IMG/VR virus record: IMGVR_UViG_3300037427_000580
Coordinates: 1 to 52,852 of that record
Direction: 5' to 3' (one strand)
DNA length: 52,852 nucleotides
Origin: a virus
Made by a program: the position numbers and the translations under genes. Each line of letters opens with the position of its first letter. The first letter of the stretch is position 1. The notes beneath the pieces were generated by a model. That model made no database searches and was not told the origin of the DNA. It saw only the letters and a list, made by a program, of their open reading frames with translations. Below, in pieces: positions 468 through 42,554 of the stretch.

Positions 468-1658
468 TTAGTAAGGTATCTCTTCACTATCAACAGTTTC
501 ACTATCAGTGGAAACTTCACTATCAATTTTAGTGTATAAATCTTTGAAAGATAATTTAGTATCTTCATCAAATCTATTTATGCACATATCAATGGCTGTC
601 ATTTTGTCATTGAAAATTGAGAAGGCTTTCGCTATGTGAACTAGCCTTCTAGTTGAGATAATCTCATCAACACCACCATCATAGAAAGTTTTTCTAATGA
701 TATCAGCCCAATCGACAAGTTTATTTGAAAAATTGATATCGTTGATTTTCAAATCATCAAATACTTTACCAAGTATTTTCTTTTCAATTGAAACTGAAGG
801 GTATTCTTGCTCAACAGTAATTGGGAACCTCTCAAGAAAGGCTTCATTCATTACGTTGGTACCGATAAATCTACCATCATCAGAACCCTTACCTTTAGTG
901 TTAGCAGTGGCAACAATAGTGAAACCAGCTTTTGGTTTAACAAACTCACCAGTTTTCTTGATGAAATAACCTTTGCCCTCAAGAATAGATTGAAGACACA
1001 TAACTTTGGCTGGGTTAGCCAAGTCAAGTTCATCAAGAAGTGCTACTGCACCCTTTTCCATCGCATTGATGATAGGGCCTTTGAAGAACTTTGTATCGCC
1101 CTCAATAAGTCTGAAACCACCGATTAAATCATCTTCATCAGTTTCAACAGTAAAGTTGATTCTGATAACTTCTCGCTTGGCTTGGGCACAAGCTTGTTCG
1201 ATACCGAATGTTTTACCATTACCAGACAAACCAGTCACATAAATTGGGTAAAACATTTTTGAACTAACAATCTTTTTAATAGATTGAAAGTTACCGAACG
1301 GAACGAAAAGTGGATCAATCGCAGGGATTAGATTCTCAGTAAAACCGTTATGATCAACAGTTAAACTAGCTTTAGGGGCTGGTATATAAGCCGCTTCAGC
1401 TTGATTGGGAACCTCCCCAATAACTTCGGCTTTAACAGCCGTTGTAGCAGTTTCTTGTTCACCTACTGGTAGCTGATACAAGCCTCTGCCGACACGGTAC
1501 TTCCAAGCACCGTTATCGTCTTTAGTATAGATTAAAAAGTTCGGTTTGGGAAACCCCATACCTTGAATCTCTTTAATCTGGGCGGCAGTAATTGTGTTGG
1601 TACCGAATTTCTCAATTGCAGTATCAACAAATTTCTGTTGTTTATCATTTAAAATCAT
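468..1658 (-). CDS. cobS-like: MoxR/CobS-like AAA+ ATPase
   Basis: This 396-residue protein has an N-terminal domain of about 75 residues and a AAA+ module: Walker A GLSGNGKT at 143-150, Walker B ALLDELD at 206-212, and a sensor-1-like TIVATANT near 250. It resembles the proteins called CobS in marine T4-like phages. In bacteria, CobS and MoxR ATPases work with a VWA-domain partner, as in cobaltochelatase or in maturation of other complexes. The gene directly upstream in transcription encodes such a VWA protein, so the two probably act together. A role in cobalamin synthesis is doubtful because no other cobalamin gene is present. It is driven by a strong cassette promoter (1703-1730), with GAGAGTG as ribosome site. 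Confidence 0.85.
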   Translation of the reverse strand: MILNDKQQKFVDTAIEKFGTNTITAAQIKEIQGMGFPKPNFLIYTKDDNGAWKYRVGRGLYQLPVGEQETATTAVKAEVIGEVPNQAEAAYIPAPKASLTVDHNGFTENLIPAIDPLFVPFGNFQSIKKIVSSKMFYPIYVTGLSGNGKTFGIEQACAQAKREVIRINFTVETDEDDLIGGFRLIEGDTKFFKGPIINAMEKGAVALLDELDLANPAKVMCLQSILEGKGYFIKKTGEFVKPKAGFTIVATANTKGKGSDDGRFIGTNVMNEAFLERFPITVEQEYPSVSIEKKILGKVFDDLKINDINFSNKLVDWADIIRKTFYDGGVDEIISTRRLVHIAKAFSIFNDKMTAIDMCINRFDEDTKLSFKDLYTKIDSEVSTDSETVDSEEIPY

Positions 1659-1702
1659 ATTTTCACTCTCTCTAATTATTAAAAACGAATCACTTACACT
1701 AT

Positions 1703-1730
1703 TATAATAGCAGGTTCTCTGGAAAAGTCA
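1703..1730 (-). promoter_or_regulatory. early promoter, cassette copy 1
   Basis: TTGACT (1725-1730), a 16-base spacer and TATTAT (1703-1708) lie upstream of the MoxR/CobS-like gene. The flanks ATATGGTTTGAGGGG (upstream of the -35) and GTAAGTGATTCGTTT (downstream of the -10) recur at 4.15 and 4.48 kb. Confidence 0.8.
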
Positions 1731-1747
1731 ACCCCTCAAACCATATT

Positions 1748-4102
1748 TTATGCCACTAAATCAATAAATTTTGAAAGCATTAATCGGCTAGACTTTTTAC
1801 CTTTGTTAGCTTTTCTAAAAGCTTGTCTTATCTGAGCCGTAGTAGCAGTTTCAGAAACTTCTATTGAACCATTTGAAGTTTCTAAATCTGAACCGAGAAC
1901 TGCAAACTGGGTAGTGTAACCAGTATCTGTCCTATTGGATAGTATTGTGAATTTTTCTTTTTTCATTTCTACCCAAGCTGATTCTTTTTGAAGATGGCTC
2001 ATTTCTCTAGGCAATTCACTTATCGCTGAAGTTTTTCTATTTGGAAGAATATGAAACCCTATCACATTAGTTTGGGTAAAATCAGCTAGTGACTTCAAAA
2101 GGGTTCTAGTCACTACATCACCACCATACCAATCACCATAATTAAGTCTATATTGCCTTTTAGTTATTGGGTTGACAAAAGAATGTCTTGGTTTTCTTGA
2201 GAACCCATATCTCTTTTCAATATAAGCTTTACCCAATCTAGCATCACCTTCAAAGTGGGACCAGTAATAAAGTGGGTGACTTTCTCCATCAGTTAAGAAA
2301 ACTGTATTGACAATATCTAATCTATTTTTCTTTTGAAACATTGTCACCAAAGTATGGGCTGAAACTATCGCATCATTCAATGGAGTACCTGACAACCAAA
2401 ATCTTTTCTGAACATAATAGCTACCATATTTACTACTTTGTCTATATCTATTTTCCCAATATTTACCAATCGCTAGAACAGTAGCCGCGGCTTTTTGAAA
2501 TTCTATTCTAGACATTTTGTTATTGAAAAATTCTAATAGATGAAAATGACTAGAAAAGGTAGTTTCATTTTTTCTATGCATTTGTGAAGATTGATTCTCA
2601 TTAGCTTTTTCTATATTCTGAGCAAACCACCCATCATTATTATCTGAGAAAGCATATACTACAAAAGGTATCTGAACTTGTCGGCAAAAGCTAACTAAGT
2701 TTAATAACTGATCTACAGTATTTGATAACTGACTAGCCATTGAACCACTCCAGTCTATAAACATTATTAAACCGTGGTTCTTACCATCTGGAACAATAGT
2801 CATCTTTTGAAAAATGTCATCTGAAAATTTGTAGTTGTTCATTTTCAAAGTATCGATAACCCCAGTTTTAGAAACTGTCGCCCTCTTATATTCGGCAGCC
2901 TTTTTCTTCATTTCAAATTCTTTAACAAGGTAGTTGATAGTCTTTTTATTGTTGACTTGAAATTCTTTGTACATTTTCATACCAGCATTAATCATATCGG
3001 TATTTTGAGAAACATCTTTAAGAATTTCTTTATAACTTCTAACTCTTTCAGTTATTTCTTTTTCTTTAAGATTAAGTTTGAAATTTTTAATATCAATATC
3101 TTTAGAAGTTGAACCAAATTCTGTTTTAAGATTTTCTTCTAAGGCTCTATCAGTTTCAGAGATGGGTAAATCAGGATCAAGAAGATCGTTTTCACCACCA
3201 TCTTTACCAGACTCACCTTCTTCAGAAGAATTTGTTAAAACTTCTTTATCGCCATCAGAGTCATCTAAGCTAGAACTATCAGCATCACCACTGTCGCCAT
3301 CATCGCCGCCATCATCTGACTCACTATCATCATCAGAGTCTTCAGAACTAGATGAATTTCCTTCTTCATCAGTTTCATCATCACCCCAACCATCATCAGA
3401 AAGGCCTTGCTGATAGTTTTCAAAATCATCATCACCATCTTCATCATCAAATTCATTATCGCCATCTTCTACCTCATTTTCTTCTTTTTGCATTTTCATC
3501 ATTTGATCTGCTATAGCCTCTTCTTGGGCTTTTTCTTCTTGATGTTCTGCTTTTGCCATATCAAATAATTCGTGAGCAACTTTAATTGCATCATCAAAAG
3601 TTTCTAGGGCAGCCATTTTGTCAACCCAAACTTTTTCATTCTTTTCTATTTTAACGCCAACTGTTTGCCCACACTTGAACAAAACATTTAATCTATCTAT
3701 CAGCTTATAGTTATTAATATGTTCGGCATCTTTACCGAACAAACCTTCTGATAATAATTTCTTGTAAGATTTAACAAAAGAACTTCTCAAACCAGGATAT
3801 CGCCTCTGAATTAATTTCTCAATTCTGGCATCTTCAACTACGTTTAAGAAAGTTTTGAAATTCTTAGGATTATCAGTACATTCTGATAACCATTTATCAG
3901 CATCGGTCCATAATGCATGGCCAACTTCGTGCCCTACTAAATGATCATATGTAAAATCTTTCATATCTTCCCATAGTGGGAGAGTTAAGATACGATCTTT
4001 TACATTGAAACTTGCAGTATCAACACTACCGTGGACAATATCAATATTTTCTGTCGCTAATAGTTTGGCAAGAACTTCTTTTGAATTAATATTTAATGTC
4101 AT
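1748..4102 (-). CDS. HExxH metalloprotease-like and VWA-domain protein (CobT-like)
   Basis: A 784-residue protein with an unusual architecture. Residues 58-62 are HEVGH, a zinc metallopeptidase motif, followed at about 88-93 by VEDARIE, a possible third ligand. Residues about 205-310 are a very acidic Asp/Glu/Ser linker. The C-terminal half is a VWA domain with a complete MIDAS: DWSGS at 450-454, SGTPLNDA further on and then TDGES. Bacterial CobT combines an acidic linker with a C-terminal VWA domain and partners the CobS ATPase, and the next gene here is CobS/MoxR-like. I infer a two-part AAA+/VWA machine that may process or remodel a protein or metal complex in the infected cell. Its target is unknown. 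Confidence 0.85.
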   Translation of the reverse strand: MTLNINSKEVLAKLLATENIDIVHGSVDTASFNVKDRILTLPLWEDMKDFTYDHLVGHEVGHALWTDADKWLSECTDNPKNFKTFLNVVEDARIEKLIQRRYPGLRSSFVKSYKKLLSEGLFGKDAEHINNYKLIDRLNVLFKCGQTVGVKIEKNEKVWVDKMAALETFDDAIKVAHELFDMAKAEHQEEKAQEEAIADQMMKMQKEENEVEDGDNEFDDEDGDDDFENYQQGLSDDGWGDDETDEEGNSSSSEDSDDDSESDDGGDDGDSGDADSSSLDDSDGDKEVLTNSSEEGESGKDGGENDLLDPDLPISETDRALEENLKTEFGSTSKDIDIKNFKLNLKEKEITERVRSYKEILKDVSQNTDMINAGMKMYKEFQVNNKKTINYLVKEFEMKKKAAEYKRATVSKTGVIDTLKMNNYKFSDDIFQKMTIVPDGKNHGLIMFIDWSGSMASQLSNTVDQLLNLVSFCRQVQIPFVVYAFSDNNDGWFAQNIEKANENQSSQMHRKNETTFSSHFHLLEFFNNKMSRIEFQKAAATVLAIGKYWENRYRQSSKYGSYYVQKRFWLSGTPLNDAIVSAHTLVTMFQKKNRLDIVNTVFLTDGESHPLYYWSHFEGDARLGKAYIEKRYGFSRKPRHSFVNPITKRQYRLNYGDWYGGDVVTRTLLKSLADFTQTNVIGFHILPNRKTSAISELPREMSHLQKESAWVEMKKEKFTILSNRTDTGYTTQFAVLGSDLETSNGSIEVSETATTAQIRQAFRKANKGKKSSRLMLSKFIDLVA

Positions 4103-4518: not shown

Positions 4519-5424
4519 TTAACCTTGAAAATTAGTAATTAATTTCATATTATAATTATTAGGCTTGTTTGTTAAGTTTTCTTTTACACCTGGTTTATAT
4601 CTGAGTTTATTTTTCTTAAATGGTCCATAGTCAACATAATGATGCCATCTACCATATTTCCAAACTACTCTAGCTACATCTGGGTGTAAGTCAGCTAACA
4701 TTTTAGATTTATTAATTGTACCATCTACATTATATCCAGTCTTTTTAAACTGATCATTCTCTGTAAATTCTGCGTGGTAAAACTCTTCAGTATTACCACC
4801 CTTAACAGTTTGTGTTGCTGATTTACCTTGCATAAATGCATTGAACTGAATCGTAACATCTCCATCTTTCAATACTCTTAAACAAATATCAGTATCTTCA
4901 TTATATCTACCACGCCACCTGTGTTTACAATCGTTTCTAATCAGCAATGTGGAGTAGATTCTTGTATTTGCTACAAATGGTGGATATTTCTGATTTGGTG
5001 CAATAAAGAATCGATACTGAAATCCAGAGATAGGAACATTTTCAAATCTTTCTACGAAATCTTCGGCAGCCCTAAAGATTACACCACTCTCAACACGTAT
5101 ACGAATATTATTATGTAATCTATAAAAATCATCTATATTATCATCTAGTACCCAATGATAATCTGCACCAATAGATATTGAATGATCCCAACACCAGTTT
5201 CTTGCTCTCCCTGGGCCATCACCATGGTTACTAAAGGGAAGTTCTAATAGTGTTACATAATCACGTATTTTAAAATTATCTAAAGCTTTCTGATAATTAT
5301 CCCAATCTTGTGGTTCAACTGAAATATAATGTGGTATTTTCATTCTAGCTAGACTTCTTGAAGTCTTCATAGATTCGTGGCGTGTTTTTGATATTATATA
5401 AACTGGGTGTCTAGGATTTGTCAT
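4519..5424 (-). CDS. TET-associated-type glycosyltransferase (TAGT-like)
   Basis: A 301-residue GT-A-like enzyme. Visible motifs are SVEPQDWDNY at 35-44, a GPGRARNWCWDHS segment at 70-82, WVLDDN at 91-96 (the acidic metal and sugar-nucleotide site), and RYNEDTDICLR at 173-183. This set matches, from memory, the TET-associated glycosyltransferase family, which in phages can glycosylate hydroxymethylated bases made by TET/JBP dioxygenases. No TET/JBP gene is in the window. It overlaps the preceding glycosyltransferase gene by an ATGA and ends a run with a methyltransferase further upstream. DNA hypermodification is the leading idea; surface glycan modification is the alternative. Confidence 0.75.
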   Translation of the reverse strand: MTNPRHPVYIISKTRHESMKTSRSLARMKIPHYISVEPQDWDNYQKALDNFKIRDYVTLLELPFSNHGDGPGRARNWCWDHSISIGADYHWVLDDNIDDFYRLHNNIRIRVESGVIFRAAEDFVERFENVPISGFQYRFFIAPNQKYPPFVANTRIYSTLLIRNDCKHRWRGRYNEDTDICLRVLKDGDVTIQFNAFMQGKSATQTVKGGNTEEFYHAEFTENDQFKKTGYNVDGTINKSKMLADLHPDVARVVWKYGRWHHYVDYGPFKKNKLRYKPGVKENLTNKPNNYNMKLITNFQG

Positions 5425-7483: not shown

Positions 7484-8027
7484 ATAAGTTTATCGCTCCA
7501 TTTTTTATCTTCACTTCGTCTTGTTGCCAATCTGGCCTTTCATCAAAATAATACCAAGCACAATTATCTTTACCAACTGATTTACTATCTGGGATCCATT
7601 TTACTCTACCAACACTTATAACACTACGTAACATATCTTGATATGGTATGCTTTGTTTCGTGTGGATCCAATCTGCATCAAATAATAAAAACATACCAAC
7701 TTTACTAGAAAATTTCTCTATCATACTATGTAGGATTTTCCTATCCCAGGGTGGATTAGTTATGATAAATTGTGTAGATGGTTTTATAATCAATTCAAAC
7801 ATATCCCACTTTTCTATCCAATCAGCTTGGGGTTCAATATCAGAAGCTAATTGCAACTTTGCACCTGTACAATGATCTTCAATATGTTCTACTAATGTAC
7901 CATCTCCAGCACATGGCTCAATATAAGTAAAATTATATGGCAAGTGAGGTACCACTGGAAGAAAAGCTTCCAACGGGGTTGGGTAGAAATCTCTTTCTTT
8001 TCTTTCATAGTCACTCCTCTTTCCCAT
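7455..8027 (-). CDS. SAM-dependent DNA methyltransferase-like protein
   Basis: A 190-residue protein with motif I EPCAGDG at 37-43 (SAM binding) and motif IV NPPW at 91-94 in the context FIITNPPWD, as in N6-adenine or N4-cytosine aminomethyltransferases. The N-terminal YPTP at 15-18 is common in phage methyltransferases of this type. It is short and shows no target-recognition domain, so specificity cannot be guessed. It shares one base with the KdsB stop region, so it is coupled to that gene. Protection from restriction, or marking DNA ahead of the glycosyltransferases downstream, are both possible; NPPW argues against cytosine-C5 methylation. Confidence 0.75.
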   Translation of the reverse strand: MGKRSDYERKERDFYPTPLEAFLPVVPHLPYNFTYIEPCAGDGTLVEHIEDHCTGAKLQLASDIEPQADWIEKWDMFELIIKPSTQFIITNPPWDRKILHSMIEKFSSKVGMFLLFDADWIHTKQSIPYQDMLRSVISVGRVKWIPDSKSVGKDNCAWYYFDERPDWQQDEVKIKNGAINLYGKRENKTR

Positions 8028-8701
8028 TATATTCTATTTCTCTTATGCCACATTTCTAAATCTTCGTGTGTGTTTATTTCAATACCATCAAATTTCACTT
8101 TAGCTACACCTATCTCAACTTCATTTTTTAACCAACGTAACTGTTCTAATCCTTCTATTGTTTCTTCTTCTGAAACACCATAGTGTGGATAATTCCACAA
8201 TGCACTTCTTCTATAACCATATACACCCAAATGCCATTCACCATAACCAGTAATACCTCTACCAAACCAACAAGCTTTACTATCTGCTCTAACAAGCTTT
8301 ACAGAATTTGGATCTTTCTTCTGTTCTTCTGGCATATCTGTGTATACAGTACTAACTGGATAATAATCTAATAGTTCAACACATTTCTCTATACACTCTA
8401 CAGTAACATCTGGCATATCGCATTGTACATTTATAAACTTCTCATACTTATCTAGTTCTTTCCATTTCATTGCACCAGCAACACGTTCAGTACCATTGTT
8501 GTACATAAATTGATCAAAGTATACTACATCAGCAAAAGATGAAATTACATCATCATCTGTAGCAATATAAACTGGAAGTCCTGATTTACCAGCGGCTTTC
8601 GCCACATACTTCACCATAGGGATACCATTTAATCTAGCTATAGCTTTTCCATGAAATCTTGTACTTCCATATCTAGCTGGTATGACAATACAAGTATTCA
8701 T
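8027..8701 (-). CDS. kdsB: CMP-KDO synthetase-like cytidylyltransferase
   Basis: A 224-residue protein beginning MNTCIVIPARYGSTR. A longer frame to 8797 exists but runs into gp46, and the ATG at 8701 follows the gp46 stop by one base. Motifs of the family are present: IPARYGSTRFHGK (nucleotide loop), NNGTERVA, NVQCDMP (metal-binding Asp), LGVYGYR, and EGLEQLRWL near the end. KdsB activates KDO with CTP for the inner core of LPS or for capsule. Length is close to the bacterial enzyme (about 250). Phages carry KdsB rarely; here it lies with other sugar genes and may remodel the host surface against superinfection or feed a modification pathway. Confidence 0.85.
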   Translation of the reverse strand: MNTCIVIPARYGSTRFHGKAIARLNGIPMVKYVAKAAGKSGLPVYIATDDDVISSFADVVYFDQFMYNNGTERVAGAMKWKELDKYEKFINVQCDMPDVTVECIEKCVELLDYYPVSTVYTDMPEEQKKDPNSVKLVRADSKACWFGRGITGYGEWHLGVYGYRRSALWNYPHYGVSEEETIEGLEQLRWLKNEVEIGVAKVKFDGIEINTHEDLEMWHKRNRI

Positions 8702-8702
8702 C

Positions 8703-10418
8703 TTATGCGGCAATTCTACTAAAGTTTTTAATCTTTTCGAATTTGATTTGATTTCTAAACTTTTCAGCAAGAATATCTCCTTTGTGTGAGATAACAAACA
8801 CGTTAGTTTGATTATCCAATTGATTTAACAATTTCAAAAATTCATCACACCCATTATTATCTAAAGATGCATCAAACACTTCGTCTAGCACTAATAAATT
8901 TGTATTAATAGAGTTCTTTAGTTTAGCTATTGCTCTCCAAGTAAACAGTAATGCTAAGTCAATTCTCATCTTTTCACCTTCTGAAAATGATGCATAAGAA
9001 AATTCATCTCTGTGTCTACTTCTGATTACTTCATTGAATTGCTCATCTAACTCAAACAACACGAAAAAATCTAAAGCGGCAAGATATTTATTAATCAATT
9101 TATTCATAACGGGTACGTATTGCTTAATAATTTTCTTTTTTATTCCATCATCTTTCAACATATTTACTGCTACACCAAACAACTCTTTCTCATTGACTAA
9201 CTCTTCTTTCTTAGTCTCATATATCCTTTTATCATCTTCGTGTGTCTTTAAAGTTTCTATAGCATCAGTAGAATCTACACCCGTAGATTTTATCTTTTCA
9301 ATTTCATCTTGATTTTTCTTTATAGACTTATTTAGGGATTTTATATTTGAATTATTCTCGGTTATCTGTGTCTGTAGTGAATTAAGTTCTGTTTGCTTTT
9401 CCATCAACTCCATAATTCTTTTATCAAGTTTAGCAACTTCATCTACAAGTTTATCTTCACCATCATATATTTCTTTCTGTTGTTCTTCGTGTTCTGCTAT
9501 CTTTTGTTTCTTGATAGTCTCATCAATTTCTTGTGAACAAGTTGGACAATTATTTGTTTCAGCAAAGAACTGGATCTTTTTTTGTATGTTCTTTACTTTA
9601 GTACTCATTCTTTTGTGTATATCATCAAGTTTAGTTCTTTTAGTTTCTTCACCTTTAAGTGGTAAAACTTTCTCTGATAGTTTTTCAATATCTAACAATA
9701 TAGTATTAGATGTTTGTGATAGATCATTTATCTCATCTTGGGCACCATCAATCAATCCTTGAAATGTAGCTATCGTATCATCATTCTGTTCTTTAAGCTT
9801 ACGGATATATGATTGTTGGGTTTCTATCTTATTCATAAGTAAATCTATTTGATAGTCTGTATCACGGATCGATTCTCTGTTATCTGCTACTCTATCTTTT
9901 AGTAGTTTACCCATATTAGAGAATATACTAATGTCTAATAAATCTTCTATAACTTCTCTTCTATGAGCAACAGATAGTTGCATAAATGGAATAAATGTAG
10001 ATGCACCGAGTACAACTATTTGAGTAAAAGATTTAAAGTTTAATTTGATAATAGTTTCTTCTAATTGCTTTTGATAATCTCTAGAAGAACCGGGTTGATT
10101 AAGTAAAGTATTATCTTGATATATTTCAAATAAAGCTGGCTTAATTCCTCTCTTAATAATATAGTCTGTTTTACCAATAGTAAAATTAACGTGAACTTCT
10201 AAACCACCCATATTAATTGAGTTAAGCATTTGAGACTTAGAAATTTTTCTAAATGGTTTATTGAATAGTACAAAGCATAATGCATCAAGTATAGTAGATT
10301 TGCCAGATCCATTTTCTCCAACAATAATAGTGTTTGCATGTTCATTTAATTTCACTTTAGTCCATACGTTACCCGTTGATAAGAAATTCTTCCAACGAAT
10401 ATCTTTAAAATAAATCAT
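8703..10418 (-). CDS. 46: recombination endonuclease subunit gp46 (SbcC/Rad50-like ATPase)
   Basis: A 571-residue SMC-like ATPase: Walker A GENGSGKST at 34-42, a central coiled coil with the zinc-hook CPTC, the signature FSEGEKMRIDLAL, and Walker B LLVLDEVFDASLD near the C-terminus. With gp47 it forms the Mre11/Rad50-type complex that resects DNA ends for recombination-dependent replication and degrades host DNA in T4. Its start overlaps the epimerase gene by 14 bases. In related phages gp47 and gp46 lie close together; here three metabolic genes separate them. Confidence 0.95.
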   Translation of the reverse strand: MIYFKDIRWKNFLSTGNVWTKVKLNEHANTIIVGENGSGKSTILDALCFVLFNKPFRKISKSQMLNSINMGGLEVHVNFTIGKTDYIIKRGIKPALFEIYQDNTLLNQPGSSRDYQKQLEETIIKLNFKSFTQIVVLGASTFIPFMQLSVAHRREVIEDLLDISIFSNMGKLLKDRVADNRESIRDTDYQIDLLMNKIETQQSYIRKLKEQNDDTIATFQGLIDGAQDEINDLSQTSNTILLDIEKLSEKVLPLKGEETKRTKLDDIHKRMSTKVKNIQKKIQFFAETNNCPTCSQEIDETIKKQKIAEHEEQQKEIYDGEDKLVDEVAKLDKRIMELMEKQTELNSLQTQITENNSNIKSLNKSIKKNQDEIEKIKSTGVDSTDAIETLKTHEDDKRIYETKKEELVNEKELFGVAVNMLKDDGIKKKIIKQYVPVMNKLINKYLAALDFFVLFELDEQFNEVIRSRHRDEFSYASFSEGEKMRIDLALLFTWRAIAKLKNSINTNLLVLDEVFDASLDNNGCDEFLKLLNQLDNQTNVFVISHKGDILAEKFRNQIKFEKIKNFSRIAA

Positions 10419-11163
10419 CTACCCTCTTTCTCTTTACTTTCTCTAAATAATCTGAAATTTCTCTAGTGGGTTTCCAACCCAACTTTAAAACTGGAGATAT
10501 ATCCATTTCATTATTATTTACTTCGAAAGATTCACCTTCCATTTTTTTAACCCATACCATATTAAGATTCTCGACAATATCAGTTAGCTTAGTAGTCTTG
10601 CCTGAACCTATGTTATATACACTATACAGTTGTTTAAAGTCTTTGTCAAGAAAAAAGATTATAGCATCTACAATATCTTCAACGTGGATAAAATCTCTCG
10701 TATGATCTGTGACATATTCTAATCTATTGTAATATAGCTTAGTCATAAACATATCTTTTCTACTACGTGGTCCGTATACTGTAGAAAATCTTAAACCCAA
10801 TTGCTCTGGCATTGCCGTTGCTTCGTTCATCTTTTTAGTTGCCGCATATGGATTCTTCCACCAATGTATCGCACTAGATGAAGAAGCATAGATTAATTTC
10901 TTACCATAATGATGACAAACTTCTTGAACGTGTTTAGTGTTTTCAACATTCTCTCTGTAATACTCTTCTTCATTACCTATACTATTTCTAACACCAGTCA
11001 TAGCGGCAAGATGTATAACTACTTCTGCATCAGTAGAAAATAATTTTATATCTTTCTCTCTTTTAAGATCCCAGTAATCAATTTTATAACCAAGTCTTTC
11101 TAACTTTGGACATAAAGTCCCACCAATAAAGCCATCACAGCCAGTTACTGCTATCTGTGTCAT
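10405..11163 (-). CDS. NAD(P)-dependent sugar epimerase/dehydratase (extended SDR)
   Basis: A 252-residue protein with the Rossmann motif TGCDGFIGG (GxxGxxG) at 7-15, IHLAAMTG around 50, the SSSS catalytic serine region and YAATK (YxxxK) near 104, and RDFIHVEDIVDAI, which is typical of NDP-sugar epimerases of the GalE/RmlB type. It is shorter than most (about 310), having lost part of the C-terminal substrate lobe. It lies between the APS-kinase-like protein and gp46, in the metabolic insert of the recombination operon. Likely substrate is a UDP- or dTDP-sugar; which one is not visible. Confidence 0.85.
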   Translation of the reverse strand: MTQIAVTGCDGFIGGTLCPKLERLGYKIDYWDLKREKDIKLFSTDAEVVIHLAAMTGVRNSIGNEEEYYRENVENTKHVQEVCHHYGKKLIYASSSSAIHWWKNPYAATKKMNEATAMPEQLGLRFSTVYGPRSRKDMFMTKLYYNRLEYVTDHTRDFIHVEDIVDAIIFFLDKDFKQLYSVYNIGSGKTTKLTDIVENLNMVWVKKMEGESFEVNNNEMDISPVLKLGWKPTREISDYLEKVKRKRVDDLF

Positions 11164-16603: not shown

Positions 16604-16630
16604 TATAACACAATTACTTTACTGTGTCAA
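16602..16630 (-). promoter_or_regulatory. consensus sigma70 promoter heading the recombination operon
   Basis: TTGACA (16625-16630), spacer 17, TATAAT (16602-16607), a perfect match, located in the 3' end of the tube-like gene. It would transcribe the dense operon from about 16.6 to 4.5 kb (zinc ribbon, UvsY, UvsW, gp55, gp47 and onward). Its -10 includes the ATG at 16603. Confidence 0.75.
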
Positions 16631-17147
16631 TTGAATACTTCCTATATGCAAATTGAACTGAACCCACTAGATATTCTATTTCAGTTCCTTGCACGTTAAA
16701 TTCTAATGCACCTAAACTTATTGGGTACAAATCTATGAATTTAATTTCAATGTTGGGTTGATATTGTGCAGTAGTAACTAGAAGAGATCCATCTGAATGA
16801 GTTAACCCTGCGTGTGTGTTTGTTTGCTGTAATGTAGATTGTAGATTTGCTCTTTGTTGAAAGTTATCTGGATATCCTAATCCTTCTAACCAATCATATA
16901 TTTCTTTAAAGTTTTTTAAATCTTCGTCTACTTGAAATCTTAAATCTAATGGAGAGAATACAAGCTTATCGCCTGGTACTGGTATCTTAATAAAGATATT
17001 TTCTTGATCTACTTGTCCTAATGTGATGTCTGGTATAGATGCCGCTGTACAAAAATAATTGACATTTGGTAATTTTTGAATAGCAAATTTAAAACCCTGG
17101 GGTGATAAAAAGCTAAGATTTCCGGGCATAGTTCCTTGAAGTGCCAT
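16614..17147 (-). CDS. second tail-tube-family protein (gp19-like; gp3 position)
   Basis: A 177-residue virion protein starting MALQGTMPGNLSFLSPQGFK. The pattern (IPDITLGQVDQEN, KIPVPGDKLVFSPLDLRFQVDED, EWL-type helix, late YPISLGALEF) is that of the T4 gp19 tube family, which is also seen in tube-terminator and baseplate proteins. The main tube gene is at 24.3 kb, so this is a paralogue; in marine T4-like genomes a gene in this place after gp23 is often called gp3, the tail-tube terminator. A late promoter and AAGGAG precede it, inside a 13-base inverted repeat. Confidence 0.75.
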   Translation of the reverse strand: MALQGTMPGNLSFLSPQGFKFAIQKLPNVNYFCTAASIPDITLGQVDQENIFIKIPVPGDKLVFSPLDLRFQVDEDLKNFKEIYDWLEGLGYPDNFQQRANLQSTLQQTNTHAGLTHSDGSLLVTTAQYQPNIEIKFIDLYPISLGALEFNVQGTEIEYLVGSVQFAYRKYSIDTVK

Positions 17148-17202: not shown

Positions 17203-18222
17203 TTAAGGCTTCATAGCATCAATGCCAGGAAGATAGTCACTCATACCCAATAATTCTCCAGTAGAGAATTTACCATCGAACGGATCTAATTGTCCGTCAT
17301 GAATTTTATTAGCTATCATAACAGCAACGTCAGACACTTCTTCGGGCATATTTGTCATTGGAGCCATTTCTACCATTCCAGTATCCATACCTCCCCAAGT
17401 ATCAGAAGTTTCCCAACTACCATCAATAACAGCCATTACTCTTTCAACATAGTAAGGACCCCATTGATCAATTATAGCAGTCAATTGTGTATTTGGGGCA
17501 AACATAATCATATCAGAAGCTTGTCCAAAAGCTTTCACTCCGTATTCTTCAGCAACTTGTAAAGCCGCTGGTGAATCTGTATGCTGTGTAATGATATCAG
17601 CACCTTGTTGTATTAATACTCTAGCGGCATCGCCTTCTTTACCTGGATCATACCAAGTATTTACCCATACTACATCTATATCAAAATCAGGATTTACAGA
17701 AGTAGCACCTAACCAAAACGAATTAATTCCACGAATAACTTCCGGGATAGGAAATGAAGCAATATAACCAGCTTTACCTTTTTCACTCATCATTCCTGCA
17801 ATCACGCCTTGTATATATCTACCTTCATAAAACTTTGAAGAGTAAACTGACATATTAGGGGCAGTTTTATAACCAGTGGCATGTTCAAATTTCACATCAG
17901 GAAATCTTTTAGCAACTTTTAACATTGCGTCCATATATCCAAATGATGTAGCAAATATAATATCAGCACCTTGCAGAGCCATATTAGTCATAACTCTTTC
18001 AGCATCAGGACCTTCAGCAACATTCTCTACATAAAAAGTTTCTACTAATCCACCTAGTTCTTCTTCAACCATCTGTCGGCCTTGATCGTGCATATATGTC
18101 CAGCCATGATCGCCTACTGGTCCTACATACACAAATCCCACTTTAACTTTTTCATCTGCTAAAGCGGGTGTAATTAAAAATAACGACAATAATACTATTG
18201 TCAATGATCTAATAAAATTCAT
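17203..18222 (-). CDS. BMP-family (PnrA-like) ABC transporter substrate-binding protein
   Basis: A 339-residue periplasmic binding protein. I set the start at the ATG at 18222, which has AAAGGA six bases upstream; the frame extends 29 codons further but only from a TTG. Residues 1-22 form a signal peptide ending ITPALA before DEKVKVGFVYVGP; no lipobox cysteine is seen. GPVGDHGWTYMHD, GADIIFATSFGYMD, EGRYIQGVIAG and a late ADIITQHTDSPA fit the Bmp/PnrA family, whose known members bind purine nucleosides or similar solutes. It is placed between gp23 and the tube-like gene with its own leader. No permease or ATPase gene is nearby, so it would have to work with the host transporter. Confidence 0.93.
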   Translation of the reverse strand: MNFIRSLTIVLLSLFLITPALADEKVKVGFVYVGPVGDHGWTYMHDQGRQMVEEELGGLVETFYVENVAEGPDAERVMTNMALQGADIIFATSFGYMDAMLKVAKRFPDVKFEHATGYKTAPNMSVYSSKFYEGRYIQGVIAGMMSEKGKAGYIASFPIPEVIRGINSFWLGATSVNPDFDIDVVWVNTWYDPGKEGDAARVLIQQGADIITQHTDSPAALQVAEEYGVKAFGQASDMIMFAPNTQLTAIIDQWGPYYVERVMAVIDGSWETSDTWGGMDTGMVEMAPMTNMPEEVSDVAVMIANKIHDGQLDPFDGKFSTGELLGMSDYLPGIDAMKP

Positions 18223-18239
18223 TGATAATCCTTTCGAGG

Positions 18240-18310
18240 GTGTTGCGGCAGGATCGTAAGGAGATACTCTGCCAGTTTTTGATAATACGTTACATTTGTC
18301 GTAACACAAC
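18240..18310 (-). promoter_or_regulatory. structured 5' leader of the BMP gene, candidate cis-regulatory RNA
   Basis: Three complementary pairs lie in the untranslated leader: GTTAC/GTAAC (18289-18293 with 18301-18305), GGCAG/CTGCC (18247-18251 with 18269-18273) and GTGTT/AACAC (18240-18244 with 18303-18307). The first and third share bases 18303-18305 and exclude each other, and the third ends six bases from the ribosome site. A possible -10 (TATATA) is at 18311-18316 with no clear -35. I match it to no known riboswitch class. Confidence 0.4.
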
Positions 18311-18331
18311 TATATAGTATTTCAAAAACCC

Positions 18332-18359
18332 AAAAAAAAGAGGGCCGTTAAGCCCTCTT
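18332..18359 (-). terminator. intrinsic terminator after gp23
   Basis: An 8-base-pair stem, AAGAGGGC (18338-18345) with GCCCTCTT (18352-18359), a 6-base loop, and on the minus strand an uninterrupted run of eight T. It ends transcription of the capsid gene before the BMP gene. Confidence 0.92.
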
Positions 18360-18382: not shown

Positions 18383-19795
18383 TTACATTAAGTTATTAAC
18401 TTTTGTTAATCTGTAATACTTGTTACCATCTCCAGAACCAAGTCTAGCCGCAACACCGTTAGCATCAGCAGTAGCGAAAGGATTTGCTACCATACCGTAA
18501 CGAGTTTTGAAACCAATCTTTGGTTGAAAAGATTGCTCACCAATTGCTCTTACCATTTGAAGAGGTACATAAGGACAATAGAAAAGTCCAGCATCAAAGG
18601 CACTAGAACCTTTATACCCTAATGTGTAGTAATGAGCCGCAGAAGCGCCTGAACTTGCAGGTGCGAAATAAGGATCGATATACACTTTGATTCTTCCGTT
18701 AAGAACACCAGCAAATGTATTTCCTGTATCGTCTACGTTTAGGTTGTTGTTTAGAGCAGGTGTGTAGTCAAGTACACCAGCCATTTGAAGTGCAGAAGCT
18801 ACATCAGAAGAACATAACATTACGTTACCTTTACCTCGTCTGGTTGCTTTTGCTAGTTCGTTAGCATCACGTTCAATGTTGAACATTAAGCCTTTGAACT
18901 TTTCAACACTCCAACGTCCATTTGAGTCTGTATCAAGATCAAATGTACCAGCGGCAGTTGTGTTGTTTTGTGAACCAGCTACAGCAGAGTAGTTAATTGT
19001 TCTCACAACTTCTCTGTTGATCTCAGCTAAGATTTCAGCAGATAGTATGTTTGACAATTCGGTTTCAGCATCAAGTCCGTGAATTGCTTTCAAGTCTTGT
19101 GCTAATTCCATTGTGTACTCAGCTTTTAGGGCTCTTGAAACAGCAGTTACAGAAATTTTCTCGATTGAGAAAGCCATTTCGTTGAAACCGTTATTAGCAG
19201 TTCCGTCACCCAATGCTTCACTTTGAGCAGTTGTCATACCTGTGTGGACGTTATAAGCACCACCAGTTGACGAAGCCGATCTTGCAGTAGGATCAGTTCC
19301 TGCCATTACTCCACCAGCAGAAGAGTTAGCCGCTCCGAAAGAGGCTGTATTCGCTCCGTTACCAGCGCCTCTAGATACGTGAGTTCCTGCTTCATTGAAG
19401 AGTGCTTCACTACCTGATTGAGATGCTAGTCTGGATCTCATTGCGAAAATGAGTCCTGTTGGTCCAGTCATTGGTTGAACACCGCAAACATCATATGCTA
19501 TAAGATTTGGCATAGAACGTCTTACGAGTGAGATTAAAACGGGATCAAAAGTGTCTACACTACCAGCAGATGCTGTAGAACTTGAGGCTCCCATTGCGTT
19601 AGTTGGCGCCGCTTCTCCAAGTAGAGAAGGACTTCTATATCCACCAGAACCAGCGTTTTGCTCTCTGGCAGAATTTTCTTGGTTTTCAAGAAGAGTTGCA
19701 GTTACGGCTCTCTTATGGGCATCCTTTATTTCTGCTAAATCAGGGTGCTCAAGAACTGGCTGCCACTTCTTTTGAAGTTCATCAGATTGATACAT
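18383..19795 (-). CDS. 23: major capsid protein gp23
   Basis: A 470-residue protein collinear with T4 gp23. The N-terminal prosequence of about 60 residues ends in SLLGE (E61), followed by AAPTN, a fitting site for the gp21 protease, which in T4 cuts after Glu65. The HK97-type core follows, with RSMPNLIAYDVCGVQPMTGPTG typical of the family. A late promoter stands upstream and the strong terminator downstream, as expected for the most abundant late product. It follows scaffold gp22. Confidence 0.96.
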   Translation of the reverse strand: MYQSDELQKKWQPVLEHPDLAEIKDAHKRAVTATLLENQENSAREQNAGSGGYRSPSLLGEAAPTNAMGASSSTASAGSVDTFDPVLISLVRRSMPNLIAYDVCGVQPMTGPTGLIFAMRSRLASQSGSEALFNEAGTHVSRGAGNGANTASFGAANSSAGGVMAGTDPTARSASSTGGAYNVHTGMTTAQSEALGDGTANNGFNEMAFSIEKISVTAVSRALKAEYTMELAQDLKAIHGLDAETELSNILSAEILAEINREVVRTINYSAVAGSQNNTTAAGTFDLDTDSNGRWSVEKFKGLMFNIERDANELAKATRRGKGNVMLCSSDVASALQMAGVLDYTPALNNNLNVDDTGNTFAGVLNGRIKVYIDPYFAPASSGASAAHYYTLGYKGSSAFDAGLFYCPYVPLQMVRAIGEQSFQPKIGFKTRYGMVANPFATADANGVAARLGSGDGNKYYRLTKVNNLM

Positions 19796-41349: not shown

Positions 41350-42153
41350 CTAAAGTGCATCTATTTTTAATTTATCATTCGCATTTTTAATATAGTTTAT
41401 AATATCTAGTCTACCCATTCCTGCTCCAGTTGAATTTTCTAGATAATATTTATTGATGTATACTATAAAAGCTTCGATATCTTTAGGGAAACATTCTCCA
41501 CCAAATCCTAATTCTCCATCAGAATTGGGAGCTTTCATATGACTTGGTCCAATATTTTTCATTTGTGACAAAGCACCAACCATTTGTTCATAATTTATTT
41601 GTGGAGGTAATTTTCTTTTTAATTCATGAAAAAATGTAACTTTAGTAGCTAGAAAAGAATTATAAGCATACTTAATTGCACTAGCAGTTTGTCTATCTGT
41701 TTCATAAAATCTTTTATGATGAAACACTTTCTTCCAAAAATCGATATTCTTTTTAGATGTTCCACCCACAACAAAGATTTCTTTTGTTTCAAAATCTTCT
41801 TTTGCGTGTTTAGCCCGTAAAAATTCTGGACAATATGTTACATTGTCGCTATATTCTTTTATGAGATCGGGTGTTACAGTACTTTTTAATAATACTGGTT
41901 TTGATGTTCCTATTTGATGTAGTACATCTTTTATTATAGTATCATCACACTCACCTTTAAATGCTCTTAGAGTATCAAAGTTTCCAGGTGCTGGTACACA
42001 AACTATAAAAGCATCTGCTTTTGATGATGTTATTGTTAAATTGTTTTCTAAAACTGGATCTATTAAATCTTGTTTTATTTCTTTTGCATTTTCTTCTAAG
42101 TAATCGCTTACTGTTTTTCCTACTACTCCGTAACCAACAATACCTATTCGCAA
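41350..42153 (-). CDS. UDP-glucose/GDP-mannose dehydrogenase, short form
   Basis: A 267-residue NDP-sugar dehydrogenase. The NAD-binding motif GYGVVG is at 7-12, the catalytic Cys221 lies in GFGGECFPKD, and LKSTVTPDL and EFLRAKHAKED are family segments. It ends soon after the central domain, so the C-terminal nucleotide-sugar-binding domain of the full enzyme (usually about 400 residues) is missing; phages often carry this short type. The start is a TTG at 42153 with AAGGAGAAG before it. It overlaps the cytidylyltransferase gene by 10 bases. The expected product is a uronic-acid nucleotide. Confidence 0.85.
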   Translation of the reverse strand: MRIGIVGYGVVGKTVSDYLEENAKEIKQDLIDPVLENNLTITSSKADAFIVCVPAPGNFDTLRAFKGECDDTIIKDVLHQIGTSKPVLLKSTVTPDLIKEYSDNVTYCPEFLRAKHAKEDFETKEIFVVGGTSKKNIDFWKKVFHHKRFYETDRQTASAIKYAYNSFLATKVTFFHELKRKLPPQINYEQMVGALSQMKNIGPSHMKAPNSDGELGFGGECFPKDIEAFIVYINKYYLENSTGAGMGRLDIINYIKNANDKLKIDAL

Positions 42154-42554
42154 ACTCTTCTCCTTAAATCGCTAGAACTAAATCTATGTTCTCTTTTATT
42201 AAAAAATAATTCAATATCTCTTTTCTTACATATATCACGGCCAGTAAATTCTTTATTTCTATATTCTTCACCTAATATTCTTATATGTATATCGTACATA
42301 GAAAGTATATCATCTAAATCTTGTTCAGTAGAATATGGTATTATTTCATCAACATATTTGATGCCGTTTAATTGAGTATATCTTTCTACGATTGTTTGTA
42401 CAGGTGCATTCTTTTCTTTACGATCAATTGTGGGATCAGTTTGTAGTCCACATATTAAATAATCACATTGCTCTTTAGCTTCACGTAACATCTGAACGTG
42501 TCCAGCATGAAGTAAATCGAATGTACTACAAGTAAAACCTATTTTCATTTTCAT
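42144..42554 (-). CDS. cytidylyltransferase (TagD / HldE-C type)
   Basis: A 136-residue nucleotidyltransferase with the HAGH motif (STFDLLHAGHVQM at 10-22) and SSSDLRRR near the end, the counterpart of RSSTDLxxR. Family members make CDP-glycerol, CDP-ribitol or ADP-heptose. Start at the ATG at 42554 (a second Met follows two codons later). No ribosome site is visible and the -10 of its promoter lies only six bases upstream, so the mRNA may be leaderless. Together with the dehydrogenase it forms a nucleotide-sugar module placed amid fibre genes. Confidence 0.82.
   Translation of the reverse strand: MKMKIGFTCSTFDLLHAGHVQMLREAKEQCDYLICGLQTDPTIDRKEKNAPVQTIVERYTQLNGIKYVDEIIPYSTEQDLDDILSMYDIHIRILGEEYRNKEFTGRDICKKRDIELFFNKREHRFSSSDLRRRVCE

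Follow-up and report, generated by a model that had tools for sequence, protein, structure and literature searches.

Periplasmic binding proteins carried by phages are known mainly for phosphate (PstS). Phage PstS is a lone phage-borne binding protein that presumably works with the host permease, and the phage BMP protein described here is likewise encoded on its own, but belongs to another fold family and has another ligand; the two adjoin each other in three loci (L021, L023 and L024). Treponema PnrA and Borrelia BmpD share family (Bmp) and fold with the phage protein, but their ligands are nucleosides and they are only 16–20% identical to it. Brucella 3s99 and Pseudomonas AtzT resemble it more (Z 46–48, 49–62% identity), including the aromatics that stack on the base and the contacts made by Ser-Phe, Glu and Trp; the phage protein differs from both in being a phage product whose gene has no permease or ATPase genes with it, and from AtzT in having His/Asp in place of two Asn. 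AtzT binds guanine, with the contacts described, while the adenine in 3s99, an unpublished structural-genomics entry, is a modelled ligand (PMC6834077). Another related system is the SAR11 purine operon, described as near universal for purine assimilation and with an ABC transporter tied to nitrogen harvesting (PMC11698098). Its BMP protein is orthologous to the phage one (53–57% identity) and its phosphoribosyltransferase also occurs in some phages, but the phages tested have no ATPase or permease neighbours, and a leader RNA preceding the gene is present on the phage side only, being absent from the SAR11-type genomes tested. Finally, the manA and wcaG RNA motifs are structured, candidate cis-acting elements found before metabolic genes of marine T4-like phages (PMC2864571). 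The phage BMP leader is similarly a structured RNA before a metabolic gene of a T4-like phage, but it precedes different genes, and no Rfam model matched it even when stringency was low.

The gene bmp (17203..18222, minus strand) lies in a stretch of 52,852 nt from a T4-like phage in IMG/VR, hereafter the window. It reads from 18222 to 17203, from an ATG through 339 codons to a stop, and its product matches Pfam PF02608 (Bmp) over residues 25–299 with 188 bits (E 2e-55), well over the curated cut-off of 24.1 bits and covering the whole domain, so that the full-length 339-residue Bmp/PnrA protein of the preliminary description is borne out. Sequence search retrieves 3s99 with E 2.6e-135, and an AF2 model (pLDDT 91.6) has the two-domain periplasmic-binding fold, superposing on 3s99 with Z 48.3 over 315 residues. 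The N-terminus (MNFIRSLTIVLLSLFLITPALA, followed by D) looks on inspection like a signal peptide of Sec type, having an AxA site but lacking a lipobox Cys, in keeping with the intact signal peptide claimed earlier.

The gene is placed between gp23, the major capsid protein gene (18383..19795, minus strand, PF07068 E 1.4e-143), and a second gene of gp19/tail-tube-like type (16614..17147, minus strand, phrog_45 E 3.8e-34), which is the late virion gene said to follow it. The terminator reported between gp23 and bmp is also there, in the form of a 9-bp stem with a T run after it (18338..18359, minus strand). A TATATA element upstream of the leader (18311..18316, minus strand) may be a promoter, a weak call judged by inspection, as is the recurrence of TATATA-type elements 5' of many viral leaders. 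The TATAAATA box before the gp19-like gene (17177–17170) counts by position alone, since shuffled sequences contain this octamer at least as often; promoter calls are weak in general, because neither sigma-70 nor TATAAATA scans gave counts above shuffles. The TATATA element is separated from the leader by a short inverted repeat, GTTAC-N7-GTAAC (18289–18305), replaced at the same spot in two diverged phages (L006 and L008) by GTTCT-N4-AGAAC, with both arms changed between phages; such a repeat was seen only in the bmp copies beside gp23. By gp23, the nearest cultured relative is Pelagibacter phage Mosig EXVC030M (64.6% identity), a methylophage being nearly as close, and the order gp23, tail tube, UvsY, UvsW is common to both Mosig and the window. 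In Mosig the tail-tube gene directly follows gp23 and there is no BMP gene, so the site occupied by bmp is empty there. Elsewhere in the window, a TET-associated glycosyltransferase (4519–5424, PF20691 E 1e-42) suggests that the phage glycosylates modified DNA bases; an AAA ATPase with a CbbQ-type C-terminus adjoins a 784-aa protein that has no Pfam match and looks CobT/VWA-like (468–4102), a similar pair being found near BMP in L032; and sugar-nucleotide genes (cytidylyltransferase, NAD epimerase, UDP-glucose-dehydrogenase-like and nucleotidyltransferase, at 8027–8797, 10405–11163 and 41350–42554) are scattered among replication and virion genes.

Missing from the preliminary description is a leader RNA (18220..18281, minus strand, ending at the bmp start codon), recognized by alignment, pair counts and a covariance model score of 77.8 bits. 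It takes up some 45 nt ahead of the start codon and follows the consensus GGCRGAGTA-(2-3 nt)-CTTACGATCCYGCC-...-CCCTCGAAAGGA, the last element lying just 5' of the start codon, shared by viral BMP genes whose contexts are unrelated. Scanning IMG/VR twice with exact patterns and adding the loci from the BMP survey gave 31 distinct versions, each preceding a viral BMP gene (L185 is counted through the match of its leader to that of L191). A search for other genes under the leader yielded none: six contigs (L164, L171, L174, L175, L178 and L183) hold the exact 18-mer but lack the motif's 3' half, and no BMP gene follows. The P1 stem (arms 18273–18269 and 18251–18247, minus strand) is paired in all 25 distinct leaders compared, and three of its five pairs are changed on both sides. 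On four of five measures of pairing, 0 or 1 of 500 shuffles reach the observed value, and on the fifth (further pair types) 37 of 500 do; as shuffles ignore relatedness, P1 covariation is strong support, not proof. The loop CCTT (18261–18258) is complementary to the Shine-Dalgarno sequence AAGG (18233–18230, both minus strand), and a pseudoknot between them is proposed from this complementarity; these pairs hardly vary across leaders, so covariation offers no test of it. Leader cores are 86–100% identical in the eight diverged pairs in which fourfold sites, also computed, differ by 32–56%. A coding role of the leader was excluded, since its loop varies in length by 1 nt and no reading frame is conserved, and by folding energy alone the leader does not stand out (z −0.6 to −1.7).

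The covariance model gives leaders 70.9–85.1 bits and anything else searched at most 18.4 bits. It found none in the bacterial loci searched and only weak, chance-level matches in eight bacterial genomes (the best being this 18.4 bits), and 200 genomes near SAR11 yielded no match to a pattern allowing up to three mismatches. The window has no match in Rfam 15 at the gathering threshold, and three leaders searched at E up to 10 returned nothing sensible, so that an Rfam identity was rejected. Within the viral tree, the leader is present in the deepest BMP subclade and in much of the subclade of the window, a distribution that takes six gains or losses by parsimony. Of the first 80 viral BMP copies, some two thirds have no leader; most of these begin no more than 40 nt from the gene before them, as though they were translated as part of an operon.

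A peptide-pattern scan of IMG/VR found 215 stretches encoding BMP relatives, and relatives and IMG sample numbers suggest that the BMP contigs are probably marine. The arrangement gp23, BMP, tail tube is found in the window, L002–L004, L006, L008, L014 and L015, so the preliminary description was right to place the gene beside the capsid gene in this phage; across phages, the gp23 site is one of several. In other phages (genes said here to be identified by inspection were assigned from the protein by eye only), BMP lies beside ThyX and a gp41-like helicase, the latter by inspection (e.g., L022, L037 and L051), with RNR and PstS (L023 and L024), with PstS and, by inspection, a phosphate-permease-like protein (L021), or with PyrF and PyrD (L005). 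In L041, GMP reductase and a phosphoribosyltransferase-like protein (by inspection) lie upstream and gp59 and a gp32-like protein (the latter by inspection) downstream, L035 being similar but cut off; the GMP reductase of L046 passes the equivalog cut-off. A DNA polymerase (by inspection) follows BMP in L048–L067 and others. BMP directly follows an SU10-type capsid gene in L070 and L076, and at least two unrelated tailed-phage lineages therefore carry it. A second, clearly different Bmp-family protein with a Tat-like N-terminus is encoded in L076 (11032–12024, plus strand, 28% identical to that of the window) and in L259 (1334–2338, minus strand), and the L046 contig also has a second, different paralogue; matches of these paralogues to NF047927 (putative B6 transporter binding protein) are weak and far under the cut-off. 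Two genes downstream of BMP in another viral contig is a RuBisCO-large-like protein (L018, 4311–5378, PF00016 E 1e-21).

The search against phage and bacterial sequences proposed in the preliminary description placed the viral copies in a single clade, with support of 91/32 in a first tree and 95/90 in a second that took in distant leader-bearing copies. Among bacterial proteins, alphaproteobacterial ones come closest (64% identity at best), and the viral clade does not fall inside the SAR11 copies. Pairwise dN/dS among viral copies is 0.07–0.15 (11 pairs), that is, purifying selection. INPHARED isolate phages have no BMP relative at E 1e-5, its only matches being unannotated gut 'Bacteriophage sp.' fragments of at most 41% identity; PHROGs has no family matching BMP, and the open-access literature yielded no description of a BMP gene in a phage. 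The Bmp family is an ordinary one, while as a phage gene it is new as far as could be searched. Its virus-gene flanks, selection and single viral clade point to a viral auxiliary metabolic gene, whose expression and effect during infection are predicted.

What would such a protein bind? The structures nearest to the AF2 model are 3s99 (Z 48.3, 62% identity) and AtzT (Z 46–47, 49–50%), while the nucleoside binders PnrA, BmpD and Lbp reach Z 34–38 with 16–23% identity; the bmp product is thus not closest to the nucleoside-binding branch. The pocket residues (W41, S93, F94, R135, E161, G165, W190, H214 and D216, corresponding to AtzT positions 45, 97, 98, 139, 165, 169, 194, 218 and 220) spell WSFREGWHD, identical to 3s99 at nine of nine positions and to AtzT (YSFTENWNN) at four. 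This signature is present in 81/81 viral orthologues, the second paralogue of L076 being the lone exception among 82 viral sequences; conservation at position 45 is partly a product of sampling, since the loci were fetched with peptide patterns covering it. Identity with the 3s99 pocket makes a purine base, rather than a nucleoside, the likely ligand, with adenine as a first guess. The purine transport role proposed earlier is therefore kept, and its nucleoside part gives way to a base.

Potential partners are found in SAR11-type loci (L154, L108 and L119), with the order ATPase, permease, permease, BMP, phosphoribosyltransferase; a similar protein beside a permease, suggested earlier as something to look for, does exist there. 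A BPD_transp_2 permease occurs in none of ten phage records (the window and nine others, most of them fragments and two of about 145 kb), and a phage-carried permease was rejected on this basis. The phage records of L011 and L021 encode a phosphoribosyltransferase 58–61% identical to that of L154, and the nearest solved relatives of the L011 protein are purine phosphoribosyltransferases. The phosphoribosyltransferase-like family F220 matches nothing in Pfam or NCBIfam, and in the PDB only, weakly, an orotate phosphoribosyltransferase (E 0.03). The window, a 53-kb fragment, has no purine-salvage enzyme. Pocket, phage gene neighbours, SAR11 operon and absence of a phage permease fit a binding protein that borrows the host permease, as the preliminary description had supposed, for nucleosides as well. 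The bmp product, made during infection and exported to the periplasm, would hand purine bases to the BMP-type ABC permease of the host itself; a purine phosphoribosyltransferase, encoded by the host or, in some relatives, by the phage, would convert the base into a nucleotide, and this would feed phage DNA synthesis. In the window phage, bmp would be a self-contained unit behind its terminator, and the leader RNA, which has a 5-bp stem and a loop matching the ribosome-binding site by complementarity, would control translation on a signal, plausibly a purine-related one. We give this whole model (a purine-base-binding protein of the 3s99/AtzT branch, a host permease and leader-controlled translation) a probability of roughly 0.72.

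The evidence also bears on three other explanations. As periplasmic binding proteins are host genes as a rule, bmp could be a piece of host DNA that entered the contig by mis-binning or mis-assembly, an outcome named earlier as one that would refute a phage gene. L002–L004 carry the same bmp and the same neighbours and are nearly identical to the window (one small downstream ORF is at 87%), possibly because they come from related samples, and the diverged phages L006 and L008, with gp23 78–83% identical and the gene order around bmp kept, are the better control against an artefact. This repeated arrangement argues against contamination or mis-assembly, which was dismissed as several contigs agree; together with the 95/90 support of the viral clade, dN/dS around 0.1, several different phage contexts and a leader found before viral BMP genes only, it makes such stray host DNA extremely improbable. 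Purine nucleosides as ligands, with the uptake role otherwise the same, would fit a Pfam family and a fold shared with PnrA, BmpD and Lbp (Z 34–38), and AtzT, differing at five of nine pocket positions, speaks against the base reading; nucleosides are nonetheless unlikely, given the lower identity of nucleoside binders (16–23% against 49–62% for base binders), the 3s99 signature and the operon partner in SAR11, a phosphoribosyltransferase, which acts on bases. It is similarly improbable that imported purine serves mainly as a source of nitrogen, carbon or energy through catabolism rather than as a direct DNA precursor. Allantoicase and ureidoglycolate lyase adjoin the operon in some SAR11-type loci, and the transporter has been linked with nitrogen harvesting (PMC11698098), but phage neighbours are genes of nucleotide synthesis and salvage (ThyX, RNR, GMP reductase, phosphoribosyltransferase), and no purine-catabolic gene was seen beside viral BMP copies.

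There are two readings of the leader, a strongly conserved and undescribed RNA element that we rate as the most novel part of the case. Does it respond to a metabolite, or is it a protein site? T4-like phages have translational repressors, and a small element near the Shine-Dalgarno sequence could be bound by a protein of the phage or of the host, in RegA-like translational repression, or be a fixed structure setting translation efficiency. This has a nearly even chance, although a general phage regulator would be expected on several genes, while the leader precedes BMP genes only, and its loop and joining sequence are strongly conserved, as in ligand-binding RNAs. As a conserved structured 5' RNA with covarying pairs, it would qualify structurally as a candidate riboswitch, and it may switch bmp on and off. 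That it is a new, small, phage-specific riboswitch, sensing a purine-related metabolite and gating translation of the purine-uptake protein, is put forward tentatively, as possible rather than probable.

If the model is true, a purine-base scavenger is spread across both T4-like phages and those whose capsid is of SU10 type, and viruses would draw on the dissolved purine pool used by SAR11-type bacteria, obtaining DNA precursors by import, beyond the breakdown of host DNA. The leader is a candidate regulator seemingly confined to viral BMP genes and, should the riboswitch reading hold, the virus would tune its scavenging to the purine pool of the infected cell.
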